In this document: one piece after another, positions 2,495 through 12,142 of the stretch
Layout of the letters: every line of letters starts with the position of its first letter
How positions within the stretch are numbered: position 1 is the stretch's first letter
Assembly (NCBI GenBank): GCA_902538185.1
Contig: CACBED010000003.1
Span: forward strand, 1-40,894
Direction: 5' to 3'
Source: an uncultured OCS116 cluster bacterium
GTDB taxonomy: Bacteria; Pseudomonadota; Alphaproteobacteria; Rhizobiales; TMED25
Length of the DNA: 40,894 bases
Made by a program: the position numbers and the translations under genes
The notes under the pieces: generated by a model
Databases searched by the model: none
What the model saw: only the letters and a program-made list of their open reading frames with translations
What the model was told of the DNA's origin: nothing

Positions 2495-3232
2495 TTAGTG
2501 TGGAACAGCTTCACCACGCCAGTCAATAATATTACCAGTATCGTTGTGATCAATATTGTTAAGCGCTTTAATTAAGTACTCTGCCGCCTCTTCTTTTGTG
2601 AAGACTTTTTTATTCTTTATTTTCTGAGTAAATGGTTTCGATAACTGAGTATCAACCGTGCCGGGGTGCAGTCCTACACAAATTGCATTCTTATTGCTAT
2701 ATGAAAGTTCGATTGACAGAGTCTTGATGAGCATATTTAGTGCAGTCTTTGAAGATCTGTAACTGTACCAGCCCCCGAGTTTATTATCTGATATACTACC
2801 TAACCTTGCTGACATGAAAGCGATAATTGAAGCACTTTCTTTTGTGAGTATGGGCGCAAAATACTTAGAGACTAAAAATGGAATATAGGTATTAACCTGG
2901 AATACCTCTTGTAAATAATCAAGATTAATTTCTCTAAAGGTTCTTTCTGGCGAGTAATTTTTTGTATGAAGCAATCCCGTCGTGTTCAATACGACATCTA
3001 AACTACCATATTTATTTCTAATCTCCTCTGCACATTTTGCTACTGAATGCTCGTCTAGCATATCCATTTCGAATTGACTCTTTCTTGACTTATGTCGGAC
3101 AATTTCGATAATTGTATTTTCACGATCCAATGCTCGAATTTGTTTAGATATTGTTGAACCTATGCCCCCACTTGCACCAATAATGGCAACTCTTGCTTTG
3201 CTAAAAATGTTTTTATTTTCAATATTTATCAT
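2495..3232 (-). CDS. Short-chain dehydrogenase/reductase (SDR) family
   Basis: VAIIGASGGIGSTISKQI cofactor motif; YRSSKTALNMLIKTLSIEL (YxxxK active site). Confidence 0.88.
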   Translation of the reverse strand: MINIENKNIFSKARVAIIGASGGIGSTISKQIRALDRENTIIEIVRHKSRKSQFEMDMLDEHSVAKCAEEIRNKYGSLDVVLNTTGLLHTKNYSPERTFREINLDYLQEVFQVNTYIPFLVSKYFAPILTKESASIIAFMSARLGSISDNKLGGWYSYRSSKTALNMLIKTLSIELSYSNKNAICVGLHPGTVDTQLSKPFTQKIKNKKVFTKEEAAEYLIKALNNIDHNDTGNIIDWRGEAVPH

Positions 3233-3270: not shown

Positions 3271-3319
3271 GTAAAAAAATATAAAACTTTAAACTATTTA
3301 CTAGAGGTGCACGTTTAAT

Positions 3320-3907
3320 ATGTGTTACATTGATTCATGTGCAAAGAAATATGTAACAATGGTTGAAATAAACAAGGATTTTATCAAGAAGTTTAAAGCT
3401 GAGAAGAAAAAGAAAGACTTTGAGATTATTTTTAACTTCTATGCACCTAAAATCAAGTCATTATTGGTGAGAAATGGTGCGGATGTTACACTTGCGGAGG
3501 ATATAATGCACGACACAATGATTAACATTTGGGATAAAATCCACTTGTATAATCCAGAAAAAGGATCCTTCAGCTCTTGGATCTATACAATTGCAAGAAA
3601 TAACAGAATTGATTTACTAAGAAAAAAATCGTCACAACCCTATACTGACATTTCAGAAATTGATATTCCGTCTGATAGTGAGAATAGCCAAGACATAGTC
3701 GAACGTAAATCTCTAACTGAACAGGTGAAAAACGCAATTAATTTATTGCCTGAAAAACAAAAAAAAGTGATAGAACTCTCATTTATAAATGACATGACGC
3801 AAGACGAAATTGCTGTTGAATTGAATATTCCAATTGGAACAGTAAAGTCAAGAATGAGGCTAGCTTATCAGAAAATGAAAGATAATTTAAAGGACATAAC
3901 CGCATGA
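3320..3907 (+). CDS. rpoE: ECF RNA polymerase sigma factor, RpoE/ECF11-like (ChrR-paired)
   Basis: Region 2 (HDTMINIWDKIHLYNPEKGSFSSWIYTIARNNRIDLLRK) and region 4 (LPEKQKKVIELSFINDMTQDEIAVELNIPIGTVKSRMRLAYQKMK). ATGA stop/start overlap with a ChrR-like anti-sigma. Confidence 0.92.
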   Translation: MCYIDSCAKKYVTMVEINKDFIKKFKAEKKKKDFEIIFNFYAPKIKSLLVRNGADVTLAEDIMHDTMINIWDKIHLYNPEKGSFSSWIYTIARNNRIDLLRKKSSQPYTDISEIDIPSDSENSQDIVERKSLTEQVKNAINLLPEKQKKVIELSFINDMTQDEIAVELNIPIGTVKSRMRLAYQKMKDNLKDITA

Positions 3908-4560
3908 AGAACTGCCCCGATCTCGCAACAATAATCTCATACTCTAGTGGTGCACTCAGTAAATCGTTTGCATTGCTTGTATCATCACACATTGAAAAGT
4001 GTAGTCATTGTAAAAAAAATATCGATCGGTGTCATGAAATGGGCGGGAGTTTTTTAGAGGAAACAGAAAATACAGACCTTGATACTAATTCTTACGCTCT
4101 GTTTTTAGATAAACTTGAAGCGTCGAAAAATAAAGAAACGCAAATTAGTGAAAAAGATATTTTTGACAAAAGCAGTGAAATTCCTGTCTCCCTGCAAAGG
4201 TACATAGGCAGAGATTTGAGCAGTCTGAAGTGGTCGTTTTTAGCGCCGGGAATAAAAAAATGCTCTGTAAAAATAGATCAAAAAGAAAACAAACATCTAA
4301 CATTTCTAAAAATCAAATCTAAAAAGAAGATTCCTGAGCATAGTCACCTTGGTAGCGAGTTAACACTCGTTCTCAAAGGTTCCTTTGATGATGAAAACGG
4401 TAGATATATGGCCGGCGATATTGCAGACCACGATCACACCTCAAAACACGAGCCAATTGTGACATCACACGAAGATTGTGTTTGTGTAATTGCAACTGAT
4501 GGTCCGTTAATTTTCAATAGCTTCATTGCAAATATATTTCAGTCTATCGCACGTATATAG
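3904..4560 (+). CDS. chrR: ChrR-type zinc-binding cupin anti-sigma factor
   Basis: ZAS-like HIEKCSHC (H-x3-C-x2-C) plus C-terminal cupin HSHLGSELTLVLKGSFDDENGRYMAGDIADHDHTSKHEP (HxHxxxE...H). Confidence 0.92.
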   Translation: MKNCPDLATIISYSSGALSKSFALLVSSHIEKCSHCKKNIDRCHEMGGSFLEETENTDLDTNSYALFLDKLEASKNKETQISEKDIFDKSSEIPVSLQRYIGRDLSSLKWSFLAPGIKKCSVKIDQKENKHLTFLKIKSKKKIPEHSHLGSELTLVLKGSFDDENGRYMAGDIADHDHTSKHEPIVTSHEDCVCVIATDGPLIFNSFIANIFQSIARI

Positions 4561-5322
4561 ATGTCTCTTCCTTGGAAGAAAGCATGGATAACTGGTGCCA
4601 GTTCTGGCATCGGTCGCGAGATAGCGTTACAATTAGCAGGTCAGAATGTAGAGATTTATGCATCAGCAAGGCGTTCTGATGAACTTCAAATTTTAAGCGG
4701 TACAAATAACAATATACACTCGATTAATTTGGACGTATCAAAAATCAAAGACGTACGGAAAAAAACTAAATTCTTTTTTGAGGATGATAATTTTCCTGAT
4801 CTTGTAATACTTAATGCTGGAGTTAGTCGTCTGTTTACGCTTGATAAAATCGATGAAAAGCATCAGGATATCATAGATTCAATGGATACCAATTATTTTG
4901 GCGTGATTAATTGCCTTTCAGCAATTCTACCGCGAATGATAGAGAGAAAAAAAGGCCATATTGCCATAATGTCATCTGTTGCAGGGTATAGGGGCCTTCC
5001 AAATTCCGTTGCTTATAGCCCAACTAAGGCAGCATTGATTAACCTTGTTGAAATTATGAGATCAGAGTTAAGCCCCCTTGGTATCAATGTATCTATTATC
5101 AATCCTGGATTCGTTGATACTGATGCCACTAAGGTGAACAAATTTCCAATGCCCAGTATGGTCTCTGTTGAGTTCGCTGCTAGGAAGATAATAAGAGATC
5201 TTGTAAAATTAAAATATGAAGTTGCTTTTCCATTTATGTTTACATTTTTTATAAAATTGCTGAGGATACTGCCAAACACTTTATATTTCTACATTATAAG
5301 AAAGCTTGTTTGGAAAAGTTAG
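4561..5322 (+). CDS. Short-chain dehydrogenase/reductase
   Basis: AWITGASSGIGREIALQLA, NAGV, YSPTKAALINLVEIMRSEL. Begins immediately after the anti-sigma stop codon. Confidence 0.9.
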   Translation: MSLPWKKAWITGASSGIGREIALQLAGQNVEIYASARRSDELQILSGTNNNIHSINLDVSKIKDVRKKTKFFFEDDNFPDLVILNAGVSRLFTLDKIDEKHQDIIDSMDTNYFGVINCLSAILPRMIERKKGHIAIMSSVAGYRGLPNSVAYSPTKAALINLVEIMRSELSPLGINVSIINPGFVDTDATKVNKFPMPSMVSVEFAARKIIRDLVKLKYEVAFPFMFTFFIKLLRILPNTLYFYIIRKLVWKS

Positions 5323-5325
5323 GCC

Positions 5326-6486
5326 TTACTTCATATGACTTAATTTAAATATACTGATTTGAATTGAGTCTTCACAAAAGCCAGCTTCGCAATATGATAG
5401 ATAGTAATTCCAAATTCTCTTAAATCTATCGTCATAACCTAAACTTTTAATACGGGGCCATTTTTTATTAAATTTCTCCCTCCACATGGATAACGTTTTT
5501 ACATAAGATTGATTGAAGTCCTCAAGAACTTCGATTTGAAGTTGTTTTGTTTCTGCAATTTTTTCTAGTAGTTTCTTACTTGGTAAGAAACCTCCGGGAA
5601 AGATATATTTTTGAATAAAATCAACTTGCCGACTATATTCAGTGAATTTTTCGTCGGCGATTGTTATACCCTGTATTATTGCATGACCATCTGTTTGAAG
5701 GCATTTCTTGATTGTTTCAATATAAATTGGAAGATATTTACTTCCAACTGCTTCAATCATTTCGACGGATACAATCTTATTATATTTACTATTTGTTTTT
5801 CTGTAATCTTCAAGTTTGAAATTACAATCTGCTAATTTTTTTGTGATGTTTAAGTCTCTTGCATATTTTAGTTGTTCTTCGGATATCGTAATTGCGTCAA
5901 TATTAATGGTATTATTCTCAAATAAATATTGAGATAAAGTACCCCAACCACAGCCAATTTCCAGTACTTTCTCATTACTCTTGATATCTAAATATGAATT
6001 TATTTTCTTGAATTTATTTTCTTGTGCTTGCTCTAGTGTAATTTGTTTACTATCAAAATGCGCGCTTGAGTACTGCATTTTGTCATCAAGCCATTCACTA
6101 AAAAAATTATTTCCCATATCATAGTGGGCTCTTATATTCTTTCTTGCCCCCCTTAAACTGTTCCATCTAAATAAATGCAAAATATAAGAAATATTAAATC
6201 TAAATATTTTGAGGGGAGTCATTTTATCGAATTTTTCTTTATTTCTCAGATAAAAGATAAAAAATTCTGTCAGATCAGAGCACTCAATATCTCCATTTAC
6301 ATAACAATCACCGAAAGCATTTGGTCCGCTTGTAAAGTAGTTCCATATAATCCTGTAGTTATTCAATTTAATCGTTAGATCGGAATTAATGGATCCAATT
6401 ACGTAATCTGTATTATCTGGAAAAATAATTTTTAGAGAACCATTTGGTTCCCAGTTAAATAATTTTTTAAAGTAATTTTTTAGCAT
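5326..6486 (-). CDS. cfa: Cyclopropane-fatty-acyl-phospholipid synthase family SAM methyltransferase
   Basis: HYDMGNNFFSEWLDDKMQYSSAHF; VLEIGCGWGTLSQYLFEN; SVEMIEAVGSKYLPIY; QKYIFPGGFLPS, all hallmark CFA synthase motifs. Confidence 0.93.
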   Translation of the reverse strand: MLKNYFKKLFNWEPNGSLKIIFPDNTDYVIGSINSDLTIKLNNYRIIWNYFTSGPNAFGDCYVNGDIECSDLTEFFIFYLRNKEKFDKMTPLKIFRFNISYILHLFRWNSLRGARKNIRAHYDMGNNFFSEWLDDKMQYSSAHFDSKQITLEQAQENKFKKINSYLDIKSNEKVLEIGCGWGTLSQYLFENNTINIDAITISEEQLKYARDLNITKKLADCNFKLEDYRKTNSKYNKIVSVEMIEAVGSKYLPIYIETIKKCLQTDGHAIIQGITIADEKFTEYSRQVDFIQKYIFPGGFLPSKKLLEKIAETKQLQIEVLEDFNQSYVKTLSMWREKFNKKWPRIKSLGYDDRFKRIWNYYLSYCEAGFCEDSIQISIFKLSHMK

Positions 6487-6493
6487 TGCACAT

Positions 6494-7270
6494 CTAGTTA
6501 GTATCGTTATTTTTTATGTAGCATATCTGTAATTTAGGGGCTTCTGGCTTCTTTTTAAAGCTCATTCCTTTAAAAAACAGTTTTAGTGCCTCATAGTGTA
6601 TTGCAAGTATGACTTTTAATGTCAGGAATAAATTCTTTGCGAGGCTTTTTAGCAGGTTGTAATTTGTATACTCAAGTTTTTCTCCTGTAAAATGAGCGAT
6701 AAGTATTGGCTGACCTCTCGCATGGAGATTTATCCCGATTTGAAATAAATTTGAATTATTCCTGATATGGAATGAATACATTCCATCCCCATCATTGAAC
6801 GGTGAAATAAATAATTTCTTATCACACTTCTGATAGATAATTTCTCCTGTTTTAAGTGCCGTTGGTATGACATAAATGACCCTTTGACCAAAAGTATTAT
6901 TTACCTCGTAAATTACTAACTCTATTTGTTTTTCTTTATTGTATCCAAGATATACCGTTATCGGGTTAAATACATAACCAAAGACACGGGGATAGGCAAT
7001 CATAGAGAAGCGAACTACTGGTTTTTTTGTGATCACATTATTTTTGATCTCCCGAAGAAAATCTTTAATGGGTCCACCATTGCCATGATCTTTGTCGTAA
7101 ATACTAAATAAATTAAATTTGTTATAGGAAAGTAAATTTGTTTTTTTACTCAAGTTACTGAAATCATCACAATCAAGCATTAGTGCAAAAACACTATATG
7201 CGAGCTTATGTCTTATGGGACTAAGGCGTTTGTGGACTACTTTACCTATTAATATATTATTTTTAATCAT
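6494..7270 (-). CDS. DUF1365 family protein
   Basis: GKVVHKRLSPIRHKLAYSVFALMLDCDDF...PRVFGYVFNPITVYLGY...EVNNTFGQRVIYVI matches the DUF1365 pattern. Located next to CFA synthase. Confidence 0.88.
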   Translation of the reverse strand: MIKNNILIGKVVHKRLSPIRHKLAYSVFALMLDCDDFSNLSKKTNLLSYNKFNLFSIYDKDHGNGGPIKDFLREIKNNVITKKPVVRFSMIAYPRVFGYVFNPITVYLGYNKEKQIELVIYEVNNTFGQRVIYVIPTALKTGEIIYQKCDKKLFISPFNDGDGMYSFHIRNNSNLFQIGINLHARGQPILIAHFTGEKLEYTNYNLLKSLAKNLFLTLKVILAIHYEALKLFFKGMSFKKKPEAPKLQICYIKNNDTN

Positions 7271-7291
7271 TAAATTAGATCATATGATTAA

Positions 7292-8590
7292 TTACACCGC
7301 TATCCTATTCCAGCTTTTCTCTATTGTCCACGGTCTGTCCTCTTTTGTGATATTTTCGGCAACGGACAGACCGCTTTGTATGCCATCTTCATGAAATCCA
7401 TACCCAAGAAAACTTCCGCAAACCCATATATTATTTTGTCCTTGCCTCGCCAATATCTGTTTTTTTATCTCCTTATTATTAAGATTAAATATTGGATGCG
7501 TAAAGATTATCTCCTTATGCATTTCTCTGTCGGATATTTTTTTTTCAGGATTTAATGTTAGGAAAAAATTTGTTTCAGTATTCAGTTTTTGTATACTATT
7601 TAGCCAATAAGTCATTGAGAGTTTCATACTATTCGTTTTTATTTTACGAGTATAATTCCAACTTGACCACAATTTTATATTACGTGGCATTTGACTCGGA
7701 TCAGAGTGCAGATAGGCAATATTTTGTTGGTATTTAAAGTTATCCAAAAGCTTTGCGAGTTGTTTATCACAGCTCTCTATCAATTTTTTGCTTTCCTGAG
7801 CTTGGTTTGCAAGAACGATTTTATCAAACTCTAAACTTTCACCGTCATCATTTGTGATTCTAAAACCATTACCCACTTTTTCAATTTTCTTAATGTCTGA
7901 CTTCATTTTTTTTTGAAAGATTGATGATTTAATAATCGCCTCTACATATTTTTTACTACCACCATCAACAGATGACCAAACAGGTCGATTTGATAATTTA
8001 AATAGCCCGTGGTTAATAAAGAAATTTACAAAGTCATGCGCTGGGTACTCCAGCATATTTTTGGGATCACAAGACCAAATCGCACTGCACATTGGAATAA
8101 TATGATTGTGAATAAAGAAGGTTGGGTAATTCTCGTACATAAGAAAATCTCTCAGTGAAGTTGATTTTGCATACCTTCTTATTGATTTTTTAGCATTTGA
8201 GTAGAATTTAATAATTGCGAATAATTGCTGCCAGTGTTGTTTACTTATGAGATTAGATCTTTGCCCAAAATAACCACTTAATCCAGAGCCTGAATATTCA
8301 TAATTTAAAATTTCATCTGACATTGAAAAGCTCATGTCAGATTGATGTTTATTAACACCAAGTAGATCAAAAAATTTAATTAAGTTAGGATAATTAGCTT
8401 CATTAAAAACCATAAACCCAACATCTAATGATACATCAAGCTTATTAGTGTCTTTTAGTGTAACAGTGTGAGCGTGACCACCAAAATGGCTATTTTTTTC
8501 GTATAGTGTTACCTCTTCATATTTGGATAAGTGCCATGCCGCAGACAAACCTGATATGCCACCTCCAATTACCGCTATTTTTTCTGACAA
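7292..8590 (-). CDS. FAD-dependent oxidoreductase, amine-oxidase-like (NAD(P)-binding Rossmann)
   Basis: IAVIGGGISGLSAAWHLSKYEEVTLYEKNSHFGGHAHTV; C-terminal WVCGSFLGYGFHEDGIQSGLSVAE. Confidence 0.9.
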   Translation of the reverse strand: MSEKIAVIGGGISGLSAAWHLSKYEEVTLYEKNSHFGGHAHTVTLKDTNKLDVSLDVGFMVFNEANYPNLIKFFDLLGVNKHQSDMSFSMSDEILNYEYSGSGLSGYFGQRSNLISKQHWQQLFAIIKFYSNAKKSIRRYAKSTSLRDFLMYENYPTFFIHNHIIPMCSAIWSCDPKNMLEYPAHDFVNFFINHGLFKLSNRPVWSSVDGGSKKYVEAIIKSSIFQKKMKSDIKKIEKVGNGFRITNDDGESLEFDKIVLANQAQESKKLIESCDKQLAKLLDNFKYQQNIAYLHSDPSQMPRNIKLWSSWNYTRKIKTNSMKLSMTYWLNSIQKLNTETNFFLTLNPEKKISDREMHKEIIFTHPIFNLNNKEIKKQILARQGQNNIWVCGSFLGYGFHEDGIQSGLSVAENITKEDRPWTIEKSWNRIAV

Positions 8591-8616
8591 TGTTATACTT
8601 TCGATTTATGAAAAAA

Positions 8617-8646
8617 TGATCTCAACGGTAGTTGTATACGTTAAAT
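8617..8646 (+). promoter_or_regulatory. Candidate ECF sigma promoter TGATCT-N18-TTAAAT upstream of the DUF2177 gene
   Basis: TGATCT at 8617-8622, 18-nt spacer, TTAAAT at 8641-8646, about 25 nt before the ATG at 8671. Resembles the TGATC-type -35 element reported for RpoE/ChrR-controlled promoters. Not statistically tested. Confidence 0.35.
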
Positions 8647-8670
8647 TTTTAGATTACAATTGATATTAAA

Positions 8671-9078
8671 ATGACTAAGTACTTTCTAACATATTTTATT
8701 GTTTTGGTGATATTCCTCACCATTGATGCTGTATGGCTTGGGTTCATTGCCCGAAAATTCTATGTGAACAATATTGGCTTTATCTTAGCAGAGAAACCAA
8801 ATTTCCTGGCCGCTGCAATATTCTATTCAATTTATGTCATCGGAATTATTATATTTTCCACAATTCCTGCGTTAAAAGATGGTCTTGGTACAACAGCCTT
8901 AATATACGGGGCCCTTTTTGGGTTTTTTGCATATCTGACATACGATATGACCAACTACAGTACATTGAAGGATTGGCCACTTCAAGTCTCGCTCATCGAC
9001 ACAGCATGGGGAACATTTCTGACTGGCATTTCTTCCTACCTTGGATATCATATTGCAAAATCTTGGGTTACCTTCTAA
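8671..9078 (+). CDS. DUF2177 family integral membrane protein
   Basis: LTIDAVWLGFIARKFYVNNIGF...YGALFGFFAYLTYDMTNYSTLKDWPLQVSLIDTAWGTFLTG is characteristic of DUF2177. Confidence 0.9.
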   Translation: MTKYFLTYFIVLVIFLTIDAVWLGFIARKFYVNNIGFILAEKPNFLAAAIFYSIYVIGIIIFSTIPALKDGLGTTALIYGALFGFFAYLTYDMTNYSTLKDWPLQVSLIDTAWGTFLTGISSYLGYHIAKSWVTF

Positions 9079-9226: not shown

Positions 9227-10315
9227 ATGGATTATGATATACCAATGAAGCCATATGGTCCGACGGCAGGTAGGGATCACATTGAGGATAAGCCAAGACC
9301 GAAAACAAAAACGGTAGATTTTCATATTCATATGCGAATTCAAGATGCTGATAAATTGATTGGTGATAGAATTCCAGATGACTCAAAAGTACAATATAGA
9401 TTTGCGAGCAAAGCCTCAAAAGAGCAAACACTCAAACATCATTCTGAGAGAATGCCATACCTGACGGATATGAATTATAGATTGCCAGATATGGAAAAAA
9501 TGCAAGTAGATATAGCGGCACTATCGTGTGCCCCAAGACAATTTTACTATTCCACAGAGCCAACACTTGGGCATGAATCAAGTCAAGTCGTCAATGATGG
9601 AATATATAAAGCGGTCAAAGAAAATAATACAACACATGTTGGATTAGGAACGGTTCCTCTTCAAGATACAGATTTAGCGATAAAAGAGCTCAAAAGGTGT
9701 GTTAATGAATTAGGCTTCAAAGGACTTCAAATCGGTGCTAGAATCAAAGAAGATGAAGAGCTTTCTTCCGAACGGTTGTATCCATTTTGGGAAGCTGCAC
9801 AGGAACTAAATGTGCCAATGCTCATACACCCTTCATCATTTTCAAGTCCAAGACTATCCGCATATCATATGATGAATATAATAGGAAACCCACTAGATAC
9901 GACAGTCGGTGTCCATTATCTTATTTTTGGAGGGGTATTAGAAAAATTTCCAAATTTGAAATTTGTTTTGAGCCATGGTGGCGCATTCACATCCCATTAT
10001 TTTGCAAGGATGGACCACGCTTATGGAGCAAGACCAGATTGTCGCGAAGACATCCATCGTAAGCCAAGCTATTACCTATCAAAGTTCTATTTTGATACGC
10101 TTGTATTTTCAGTAGAACAGTTATCTTATTTAATTAGTAATTTTGGCTCGGATCGTATTTTATTAGGTACCGATTATCCATTCGATATGGCTGAATTTAA
10201 TCCTGTTGAACATGTCTACCAAGTACCTGAACTCAGCGAGAGCGATAGAGAAAAAATCTGTGGTTTAAACGCACTAAACCTTATGGGAATTGATGAAGCT
10301 TACTTTAGTGAGTAA
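9227..10315 (+). CDS. Amidohydrolase family (ACMSD-like metal-dependent hydrolase)
   Basis: VDFHIHMRI metal-binding start; MLIHPSSF; KFVLSHGGA; RILLGTDYPFD. Confidence 0.9.
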   Translation: MDYDIPMKPYGPTAGRDHIEDKPRPKTKTVDFHIHMRIQDADKLIGDRIPDDSKVQYRFASKASKEQTLKHHSERMPYLTDMNYRLPDMEKMQVDIAALSCAPRQFYYSTEPTLGHESSQVVNDGIYKAVKENNTTHVGLGTVPLQDTDLAIKELKRCVNELGFKGLQIGARIKEDEELSSERLYPFWEAAQELNVPMLIHPSSFSSPRLSAYHMMNIIGNPLDTTVGVHYLIFGGVLEKFPNLKFVLSHGGAFTSHYFARMDHAYGARPDCREDIHRKPSYYLSKFYFDTLVFSVEQLSYLISNFGSDRILLGTDYPFDMAEFNPVEHVYQVPELSESDREKICGLNALNLMGIDEAYFSE

Positions 10316-10687: not shown

Positions 10688-12142
10688 TTGGAGAAAAATT
10701 TAATGCAAGGAAATAATATTTTATTTATCATGGCTGATGAGCATAATTATAACTGCATTAACCAATTAGGTAATGATTTTATTATCACTCCAAATATTGA
10801 TAGCCTTGTCAAAGAGGGTACCACATTTACAAGTGCTTATACGCCTTCACCACTTTGTGTTCCCGCAAGGGCATCATTAGCTACAGGAACATACGTCCAC
10901 AAGAATAAGTATTGGGATGGAGCGCATGCATACGATGCTAGGGTACCTGGCTGGCAGCACGTCTTACGCGATAACAATGTGAATGTTACTTCCATAGGAA
11001 AATTACATTATAAGGACCGAACAATTGATACTGGATTCACAGAGACTATCGAGCCTATGCATTTGAAAGATGGGCTTGGTGATTTATTCGGGCTCTTGAG
11101 AGAAGAGATGCCGCCAAAAGATGCTTGCAAAAGATTATCCGAAGAGCTTGGAAGGGGTGATTGTGAGTACTTGGAATATGATCGCCTAATTACAAATAAA
11201 GCTATTGAATGGATTAGAAAACAAAAGAAAAGAGAGAAGCCAGACAGCCCGTGGGTATTATTTGTATCTTTTGTGTCGCCTCACTATCCCCTTATTGCAC
11301 CACCTGATTTTTATGACTTATATAATGATGCAAACCTGCCCTATGATAATTACCAGAATTTATCAAAAAATAAGCTGCATTCATGGGTTAAGGGTATACG
11401 AGAAAGTTGGCCATACGATGATTATATGGATGAGGAAAAAAGAAAAATTGCAGTACAAGCTTATTACGGTATGTGTAGTTTTATGGACTCAAATGTGGGT
11501 AAACTGCTCACGGAACTTAAACAATGTGATATATATGATGACACTACAATTATTTATGCAAGTGATCACGGAGAGTCACTTGGTAATAGAGGGCTTTGGG
11601 GAAAGATGACAATGTACGAAGACTCAGCATCAATACCCTTAATCATAAAGGGGCCCAACTTTAAAAAAAATCAGATGTGTAAAACACCTGTCACCTTGAT
11701 TGATCTATATCCAACAATATTCGATATTTTATCACTTGATCACGTTGCAAGTGAGGCGAATATAGATGGCGAGTCACTCAGGGCTATAGCAAACAACACT
11801 TACGATAAAAATAGATGTGTTTTAAGTGAGTATCATGGAGCTGGATCATATGGCGGCGCCTTCATGCTTAGAATGGGAGATTATAAGTATATATATTATG
11901 TAGGACATCAACCAGAGGTTTTTGACATTAAAAGTGATCCAAATGAGAAGCAAAATCTTGCAAATGACCCATCATTTAGAAGTTTGGTTGATATGCTGGA
12001 TAATGCATTAAGGTCAATTATTAATCCTGAAAGCGTCGATGAAGCAGCGCGTAGCGATCAAAAAAAGATGCTTAAGGATGTTGGGGGTATTGATTTTGTT
12101 TTGAATAGAGGAAACTATGCTGGTACGCCGGTAGGTTCATGA
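10688..12142 (+). CDS. Type I sulfatase (arylsulfatase/choline-sulfatase-like)
   Basis: MADEHNYNC...; formylglycine motif LCVPARASLATG (C-x-P-x-R); IIYASDHGESLGNRGLWGK. True start probably the ATG at 10703. Confidence 0.93.
   Translation: MEKNLMQGNNILFIMADEHNYNCINQLGNDFIITPNIDSLVKEGTTFTSAYTPSPLCVPARASLATGTYVHKNKYWDGAHAYDARVPGWQHVLRDNNVNVTSIGKLHYKDRTIDTGFTETIEPMHLKDGLGDLFGLLREEMPPKDACKRLSEELGRGDCEYLEYDRLITNKAIEWIRKQKKREKPDSPWVLFVSFVSPHYPLIAPPDFYDLYNDANLPYDNYQNLSKNKLHSWVKGIRESWPYDDYMDEEKRKIAVQAYYGMCSFMDSNVGKLLTELKQCDIYDDTTIIYASDHGESLGNRGLWGKMTMYEDSASIPLIIKGPNFKKNQMCKTPVTLIDLYPTIFDILSLDHVASEANIDGESLRAIANNTYDKNRCVLSEYHGAGSYGGAFMLRMGDYKYIYYVGHQPEVFDIKSDPNEKQNLANDPSFRSLVDMLDNALRSIINPESVDEAARSDQKKMLKDVGGIDFVLNRGNYAGTPVGS

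Follow-up and report, generated by a model that had tools for sequence, protein, structure and literature searches.

A probable RpoE-ChrR singlet-oxygen response locus with the core furan fatty acid genes in an uncultured OCS116 cluster bacterium

In Rhodobacter (Cereibacter) sphaeroides, the furan fatty acid (FuFA) proteins are the FAD protein UfaD (RSP1091), UfaO (RSP1090), which carries DUF1365, and UfaM (RSP2144), while in Rhodopseudomonas palustris RPA2571-RPA2570-RPA2569 correspond to ufaD-ufaO-ufaM (PMC7380195). A review lists the FuFA genes in the core regulon of RpoE-ChrR, a sigma/anti-sigma pair of extracytoplasmic function (ECF) group ECF11, across species, and in R. sphaeroides FuFAs are needed for ChrR turnover too (PMC6852236). 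Here, we analyzed a 40,894-nt stretch (the window) of contig CACBED010000003.1 from an uncultured OCS116 cluster bacterium (GCA_902538185.1), with a focus on positions 3320-9078. This region very probably encodes an ECF11 RpoE-ChrR singlet-oxygen response together with the core FuFA genes, and the R. sphaeroides scheme is its most likely working mode.

Genes were identified from open reading frame (ORF) calls and profile searches against Pfam and NCBIfam, complemented by PDB sequence comparison for selected proteins. Each gene that a first-pass annotation had listed here, namely an ECF sigma factor, ChrR, a short-chain dehydrogenase/reductase (SDR), a CMAS methyltransferase, a DUF1365 protein, an FAD protein and DUF2177, was matched by a family profile. 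As that annotation described, the sigma gene and chrR are coupled through an ATGA overlap (3904-3907), the SDR and methyltransferase genes are convergent with stops 3 bp apart (5322 and 5326), and DUF2177 and the FAD gene are transcribed away from each other. Because DUF1365 is the UfaO family (PMC7380195), the tight minus-strand operon, in the order ufaD-ufaO-ufaM, is a complete set, with all three Ufa homologues present and linked. The annotation had already read these genes as a compact version of the R. sphaeroides system, possibly making methylated or furan fatty acids, but had overlooked that the DUF1365 protein is UfaO itself.

The locus shares with R. sphaeroides the regulator pair, the adjacency of ufaD and ufaO (there in the RSP1091-1087 operon), the UfaM type and the ECF11 promoter type. 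It differs in having all three ufa genes together, whereas ufaM of R. sphaeroides is unlinked from ufaD and ufaO (PMC12089945). In relatives of R. sphaeroides, rpoE-chrR and ufaD-ufaO point away from each other, their promoters lying back to back, whereas in the window the ufa genes run towards the sigma operon and only DUF2177 shows a canonical ECF11 promoter. R. palustris has the same gene set and order, and additionally FufM, for dimethyl-furan lipids. Three ufa genes likewise stand in a row in the marine Halomonas sp. YLGW01, whose UfaM produces a FuFA intermediate in E. coli (PMC12089945); unlike the window's genus, this gammaproteobacterium has a separate Cfa, the cyclopropane fatty acid (CFA) synthase. 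The layout is matched gene for gene (DUF2177 / ufaD ufaO ufaM / SDR chrR rpoE) in a metagenome-assembled genome, Rhodobacteraceae bacterium HF-Dia03 (locus L072), which differs in its UfaO (about 42% identity), its larger genome and the lack of a rhodopsin match. The RpoE2-ChrR regulon of Shewanella and Vibrio resembles the window in its TGATC-N-CGTA promoters, cfa-type gene and SDR, but includes a photolyase operon. The window holds no photolyase, as noted in the first pass; congeners have 2-4 photolyase-type matches, and the window's genome is only 53% complete. Since the layout is common and FuFA genes already belong to the core ECF11 regulon (PMC6852236), we count the system as known, a well-preserved example of a described bacterial response.

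The furan assignment is supported by the grouping of the methyltransferase with UfaM-type enzymes and by the homology of the FAD protein. In Cfa, His266, Glu239 and Tyr317 bind a bicarbonate thought to abstract the proton whose loss completes the cyclopropane ring, and activity drops when bicarbonate is removed or its ligands are mutated (PMC11387697). We took CFA-family proteins from the loci, sorted them by the presence of ufaO next door, and compared them at the E. coli Cfa columns Cys139, Glu239, His266, Ile268 and Tyr317. The window enzyme reads S-E-Q-I-Y, with Ser for Cys139 and Gln for His266, so that only Glu239 and Tyr317 remain of the bicarbonate ligands. The ufa-linked methyltransferases read S/A-E-Q-I-Y in 85 of 85 cases. 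In contrast, free-standing Cfa proteins read C-E-H-I-Y (28 of 28, with the Ufa-type change in none), as do two solved Cfa structures. The pattern also holds in a test independent of adjacency: in 11 genomes of one family (f56), which belongs to the same class as the window, the methyltransferase gene has no ufaO adjacent, and all 11 proteins read S-E-Q-I-Y. With ChrR proteins 48-71% identical to that of R. sphaeroides, this family is probably Rhodobacteraceae, hence "Rhodobacteraceae-like". In G147, whose genome encodes enzymes of both types, the ufa-linked one carries Gln and the two others carry His. In addition, the window protein scores 260 bits against an equivalog cut-off of 400 in the NCBIfam Cfa model. 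In a UfaM/Cfa tree computed after the two diagnostic columns had been removed, all 45 Ufa-type proteins, the window's included, fall on one side of a branch with a Shimodaira-Hasegawa-like approximate likelihood ratio (SH-aLRT) support of 94. The generic Cfa placement raised in the first pass thus gave way, by residues and by tree, to a grouping with Ufa-linked enzymes.

Judged by sequence, this methyltransferase does not belong to the cyclopropane synthases. Without the bicarbonate base, the carbocation would lose a chain proton, which would yield the known UfaM product, methylated and retaining a double bond. Genomes of the genus that carry the block have a single strong CFA-family match each, the other matches being weak (around E 1e-11). 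Among the open-licence papers searched, we found none stating the test of Gln for His266 and Ser/Ala for Cys139. We also observed a second family of CFA-like methyltransferases, deeply split from the others and marked by the motif HVF, in which His266 is kept and Ile268 is Phe. It is encoded a few kb from ufaO, separate from ufaM (L079, L083, L106, L111, L115, L122, L129, L144 and L145), and may represent a further lipid methylase of the regulon.

With respect to UfaD, the window FAD protein aligns over nearly its full length with the FAD protein beside ufaO in the Rhodobacteraceae-like genomes (E about 1e-73 to 1e-86). Its top solved relative is the amine oxidase LkcE; a generic amine-oxidase placement, the case considered in the first pass, is replaced by full-length homology to a protein adjacent to ufaO and rpoE-chrR. 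For UfaO, comparison with PDB sequences gave no notable match, the best (E 0.004) being to dihydroorotate dehydrogenases over about 85 residues. A confident AlphaFold model (predicted local distance difference test, pLDDT, 89) showed weak matches to lipid- and heme-binding beta-barrels, namely the Ycf58 lipid-binding-like protein (E 1.4e-3) and nitrobindin (E 0.025), which serve as a lead only. Eight residues, H13, R15, H21, Y25, Y133, K151, Y165 and K234, are invariant in 59 UfaO sequences and offer a lead to the active site, while H225 and E227 are near-invariant. H13, H21, H225 and E227 are candidate ligands of a metal or heme.

The regulator pair is ECF11 RpoE-ChrR by its sequence, combining the sigma factor with a translationally coupled two-domain ChrR. 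The top PDB match of the sigma protein is R. sphaeroides RpoE (2q1z_A, E 1.3e-33). The first pass had the gene right and its start, at 3320, probably wrong: ATG 3359 (MVEINKDF...) is aligned and conserved among relatives, whereas ATG 3320 is lost in more distant congeners. A -10-like CGT stands just 5' of ATG 3359, and translation probably begins there. ChrR scores 176.9 bits against a TIGR02451 cut-off of 124.5 (NCBIfam) and matches PDB 2z2s_B (E 9e-33). In an alignment that includes the R. sphaeroides protein, no substitution occurs at the cupin ligands H146, H148, E152 and H182, and the zinc site retains H29, C33 and C36. The corresponding residues of R. sphaeroides ChrR we take, from the 2Z2S work, to be His6, His31, Cys35 and Cys38 for zinc and His141, His143, Glu147 and His177 for the cupin site.

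Of the 12 genomes of the genus, the window's included, 11 carry the whole block, as do both from the sister genus, so the arrangement is not due to chance. Among 62 full-length named DUF1365 loci, matches were found to ufaD in 61, ufaM in 48, sigma in 45, ChrR in 45, DUF2177 in 38 and the SDR in 33; on these counts, the association of ufa genes with RpoE-ChrR is common in Pseudomonadota. We also observed ufaD-ufaO-ufaM operons in SAR11 (Pelagibacterales) single cells (L099, L101, L103, L124, L125, L132, L136, L139 and L151). A ChrR search of 11 SAR11 genomes with ufaDOM gave no match in ten and a weak, partial match in the eleventh, and the furan lipid cluster seems to occur there without its regulator. 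The window's own genome (G000) comprises 870 kb, and congeners reach about 1.3 Mb. It encodes a rhodopsin outside the window (G000:C1:53784-54422), as do 11 of 12 genomes of the genus, its own included, and neither of the two from the sister genus. The rhodopsin gene supports exposure to light. The "probably pelagic" lifestyle suggested in the first pass fits the size of the congeners and the presence of this gene, which nevertheless says nothing on habitat.

Published ECF11 promoters of Shewanella and Vibrio follow the pattern TGATC-N-CGTA. As a positive control, the Rhodobacteraceae-like loci have rpoE-chrR divergent from ufaD-ufaO, most with back-to-back TGATCC-N17-CGTA. In the window, a strict TGATC-N15-20-CGTAW search gave zero matches, and the promoter was seen only by aligning relatives. 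This alignment revealed a conserved site 5' of DUF2177, whose 10 motif columns all stay unchanged across 11 congeners, compared with 30 of 97 columns in the intergenic region as a whole (P 2e-6, kinship ignored). RpoE control of DUF2177 is well supported by this sequence conservation. At rpoE, the -35 element reads TAAAC in 8 of 13 loci (the window and 7 of 12 relatives) and TGATC in 5, with the CGT and N17 spacing kept; L038, L039, L041, L043 and L044 carry TGATC-N17-CGTT/CGTA at this place. This split (L032-L044) reflects either a weakened autoregulation or a site that differs between two sub-lineages, and RpoE control of the sigma operon is plausible. In the sister genus, canonical sites stand at all three places, DUF2177, ufaD and rpoE. 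A genome-wide motif count in G000 gave 7 against 9 in the control, and in the absence of an excess we propose no wider regulon.

Several observations weigh against the RpoE-ChrR and furan interpretation. The support of the Ufa branch, 94, lies under the 95 at which the program awards its star. Ufa homology is anchored through family-level relatives and synteny rather than the R. sphaeroides (RSP2144) and R. palustris sequences themselves. The first zinc ligand of R. sphaeroides ChrR, His6, is Cys4 in the window protein, although a cysteine is plausible as a zinc ligand here. The -35 of the rpoE promoter is degenerate in the window. Finally, an alignment of 11 congeners showed no canonical ECF11 site 5' of ufaD in the genus, leaving RpoE control of the ufa operon unproven. 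A minus-strand candidate at ufaD, AGATC-N18-AGTAT, had two mismatches and was unconserved, and was rejected.

The promoter data bear directly on one alternative, in which the FuFA genes are constitutive and outside RpoE-ChrR, and DUF2177, perhaps with the sigma operon, alone responds to RpoE. It is favored by the lack of a canonical site 5' of ufaD, even though the sister genus has one there, and by the SAR11 genomes in which ChrR was not found. However, the compact intergenic region and the palindromic GATC core make a degenerate, overlapping site possible, and the linkage of ufa genes and regulator is kept in 13 of 13 loci. We consider constitutive expression possible, if somewhat unlikely.

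Under the preferred R. sphaeroides-type scheme, the zinc domain of ChrR would keep RpoE inactive until the cupin domain senses singlet oxygen or lipid oxidation products and ChrR is turned over, allowing RpoE to transcribe its regulon. UfaM would methylate a cis-unsaturated phospholipid acyl chain, leaving a shifted double bond with no cyclopropane closure; UfaD would desaturate this product to a methylated diene; and UfaO would insert an O2-derived oxygen, closing the furan ring. The products expected of the pathway are 11Me-12t-18:1, 11Me-10t,12t-18:2 and 9M5-FuFA. The resulting furan lipids may act as quenchers or reporters of singlet oxygen and contribute to the loss of ChrR. For the window organism, the furan chemistry, the induction by singlet oxygen and this feedback are what we infer from the scheme. 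The scavenger role proposed in the first pass is only one of two published roles of FuFAs.

In a variant of this scheme, furan lipids would always be present in the membrane and would sense or quench singlet oxygen there, while RpoE-ChrR would drive only what is left of a shrunken regulon, such as DUF2177; SAR11, where ufaDOM is kept and ChrR lost, would be the end point. This variant is suggested by the weakened rpoE and ufaD promoters and by the FuFA enzymes being the sole full-length CFA-type lipid modifiers in this streamlined, rhodopsin-bearing lineage, and we hold it to be unlikely. Equally doubtful is a sensor whose main signal is an organic hydroperoxide, superoxide or a metal instead of singlet oxygen. 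ChrR systems elsewhere do respond to cadmium, organic hydroperoxides or superoxide (PMC6852236, PMC11832516); against this, the cupin ligands required for the singlet-oxygen branch are all kept and the window's genome encodes a rhodopsin. A CFA stress cluster, with a methyltransferase that makes cyclopropane lipids and the FAD and DUF1365 proteins as accessories, is very improbable: PF02353 and the NCBIfam cfa models do match, and Vibrio and Shewanella papers call the homologous gene a CFA synthase, but the sub-cut-off score, the Cys139 and His266 substitutions, the dependence of Cfa on bicarbonate and its ligands (PMC11387697) and the tree all speak against it.

Table 1. Genes and promoters of the locus, with positions in the window.
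Feature	Position	Strand	Basis
rpoE, ECF11-type sigma factor	3359..3907 (ORF opens 3320)	+	Sigma70_r2/r4; PDB 2q1z_A; start conservation
chrR, anti-sigma factor with zinc and cupin domains	3904..4560	+	TIGR02451; PDB 2z2s_B; ligand alignment
SDR oxidoreductase, gene 3 of sigma operon	4561..5322	+	PF00106 E 2e-40
UfaM-type fatty acyl methyltransferase, S-adenosylmethionine-dependent	5326..6486	-	PF02353 E 3e-73; Ser141, Glu245, Gln272, Tyr328; tree
UfaO family (DUF1365), proposed furan-ring-forming oxygenase	6494..7270	-	PF07103 E 3e-64
UfaD-type FAD-dependent acyl desaturase, TTG start at 8590	7292..8590	-	Amino_oxidase/NAD_binding_8 (PF01593/PF13450)
DUF2177 membrane protein, predicted RpoE target	8671..9078	+	PF09945 E 8e-43
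ECF11 (RpoE) promoter 5' of DUF2177, TGATC-N17-CGTTA	8617..8643	+	Alignment of relatives; genome scan
Putative degenerate ECF11 rpoE promoter, TAAAC (3290-3294)-N17-CGTTT (3312-3316)	3290..3316	+	Alignment of relatives
SDR divergent from rpoE, possible further island member	2495..3232	-	Position kept; PRK09009-like

The SDR gene upstream of rpoE (Table 1) stands at the same place in 13 of 13 loci examined in the genus and sister genus, and its protein is nearest to the PRK09009 model (218 bits, under the NCBIfam cut-off of 330). Downstream, we noted a sulfatase (PF00884 with SGSH_C; 10688-12142, plus strand), in a small genome, preceded by an amidohydrolase at 9227-10315. An Rfam search of the region gave zero matches, and sigma-70 and terminator scans gave counts not above those in shuffled sequence.

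The moderate interest of this locus rests on its lineage, on a clean sequence test and on the SAR11 observation. The residue test, Gln for His266 and Ser/Ala for Cys139, separates furan-pathway methyltransferases from true cyclopropane synthases, and many genes annotated as cfa could be re-read with it. The locus places a complete FuFA pathway in very small, rhodopsin-bearing genomes, where membrane photo-oxidation is plausible. If the occurrence of ufaDOM without ChrR in SAR11 is confirmed by lipid work, furan lipids would matter for abundant ocean bacteria.

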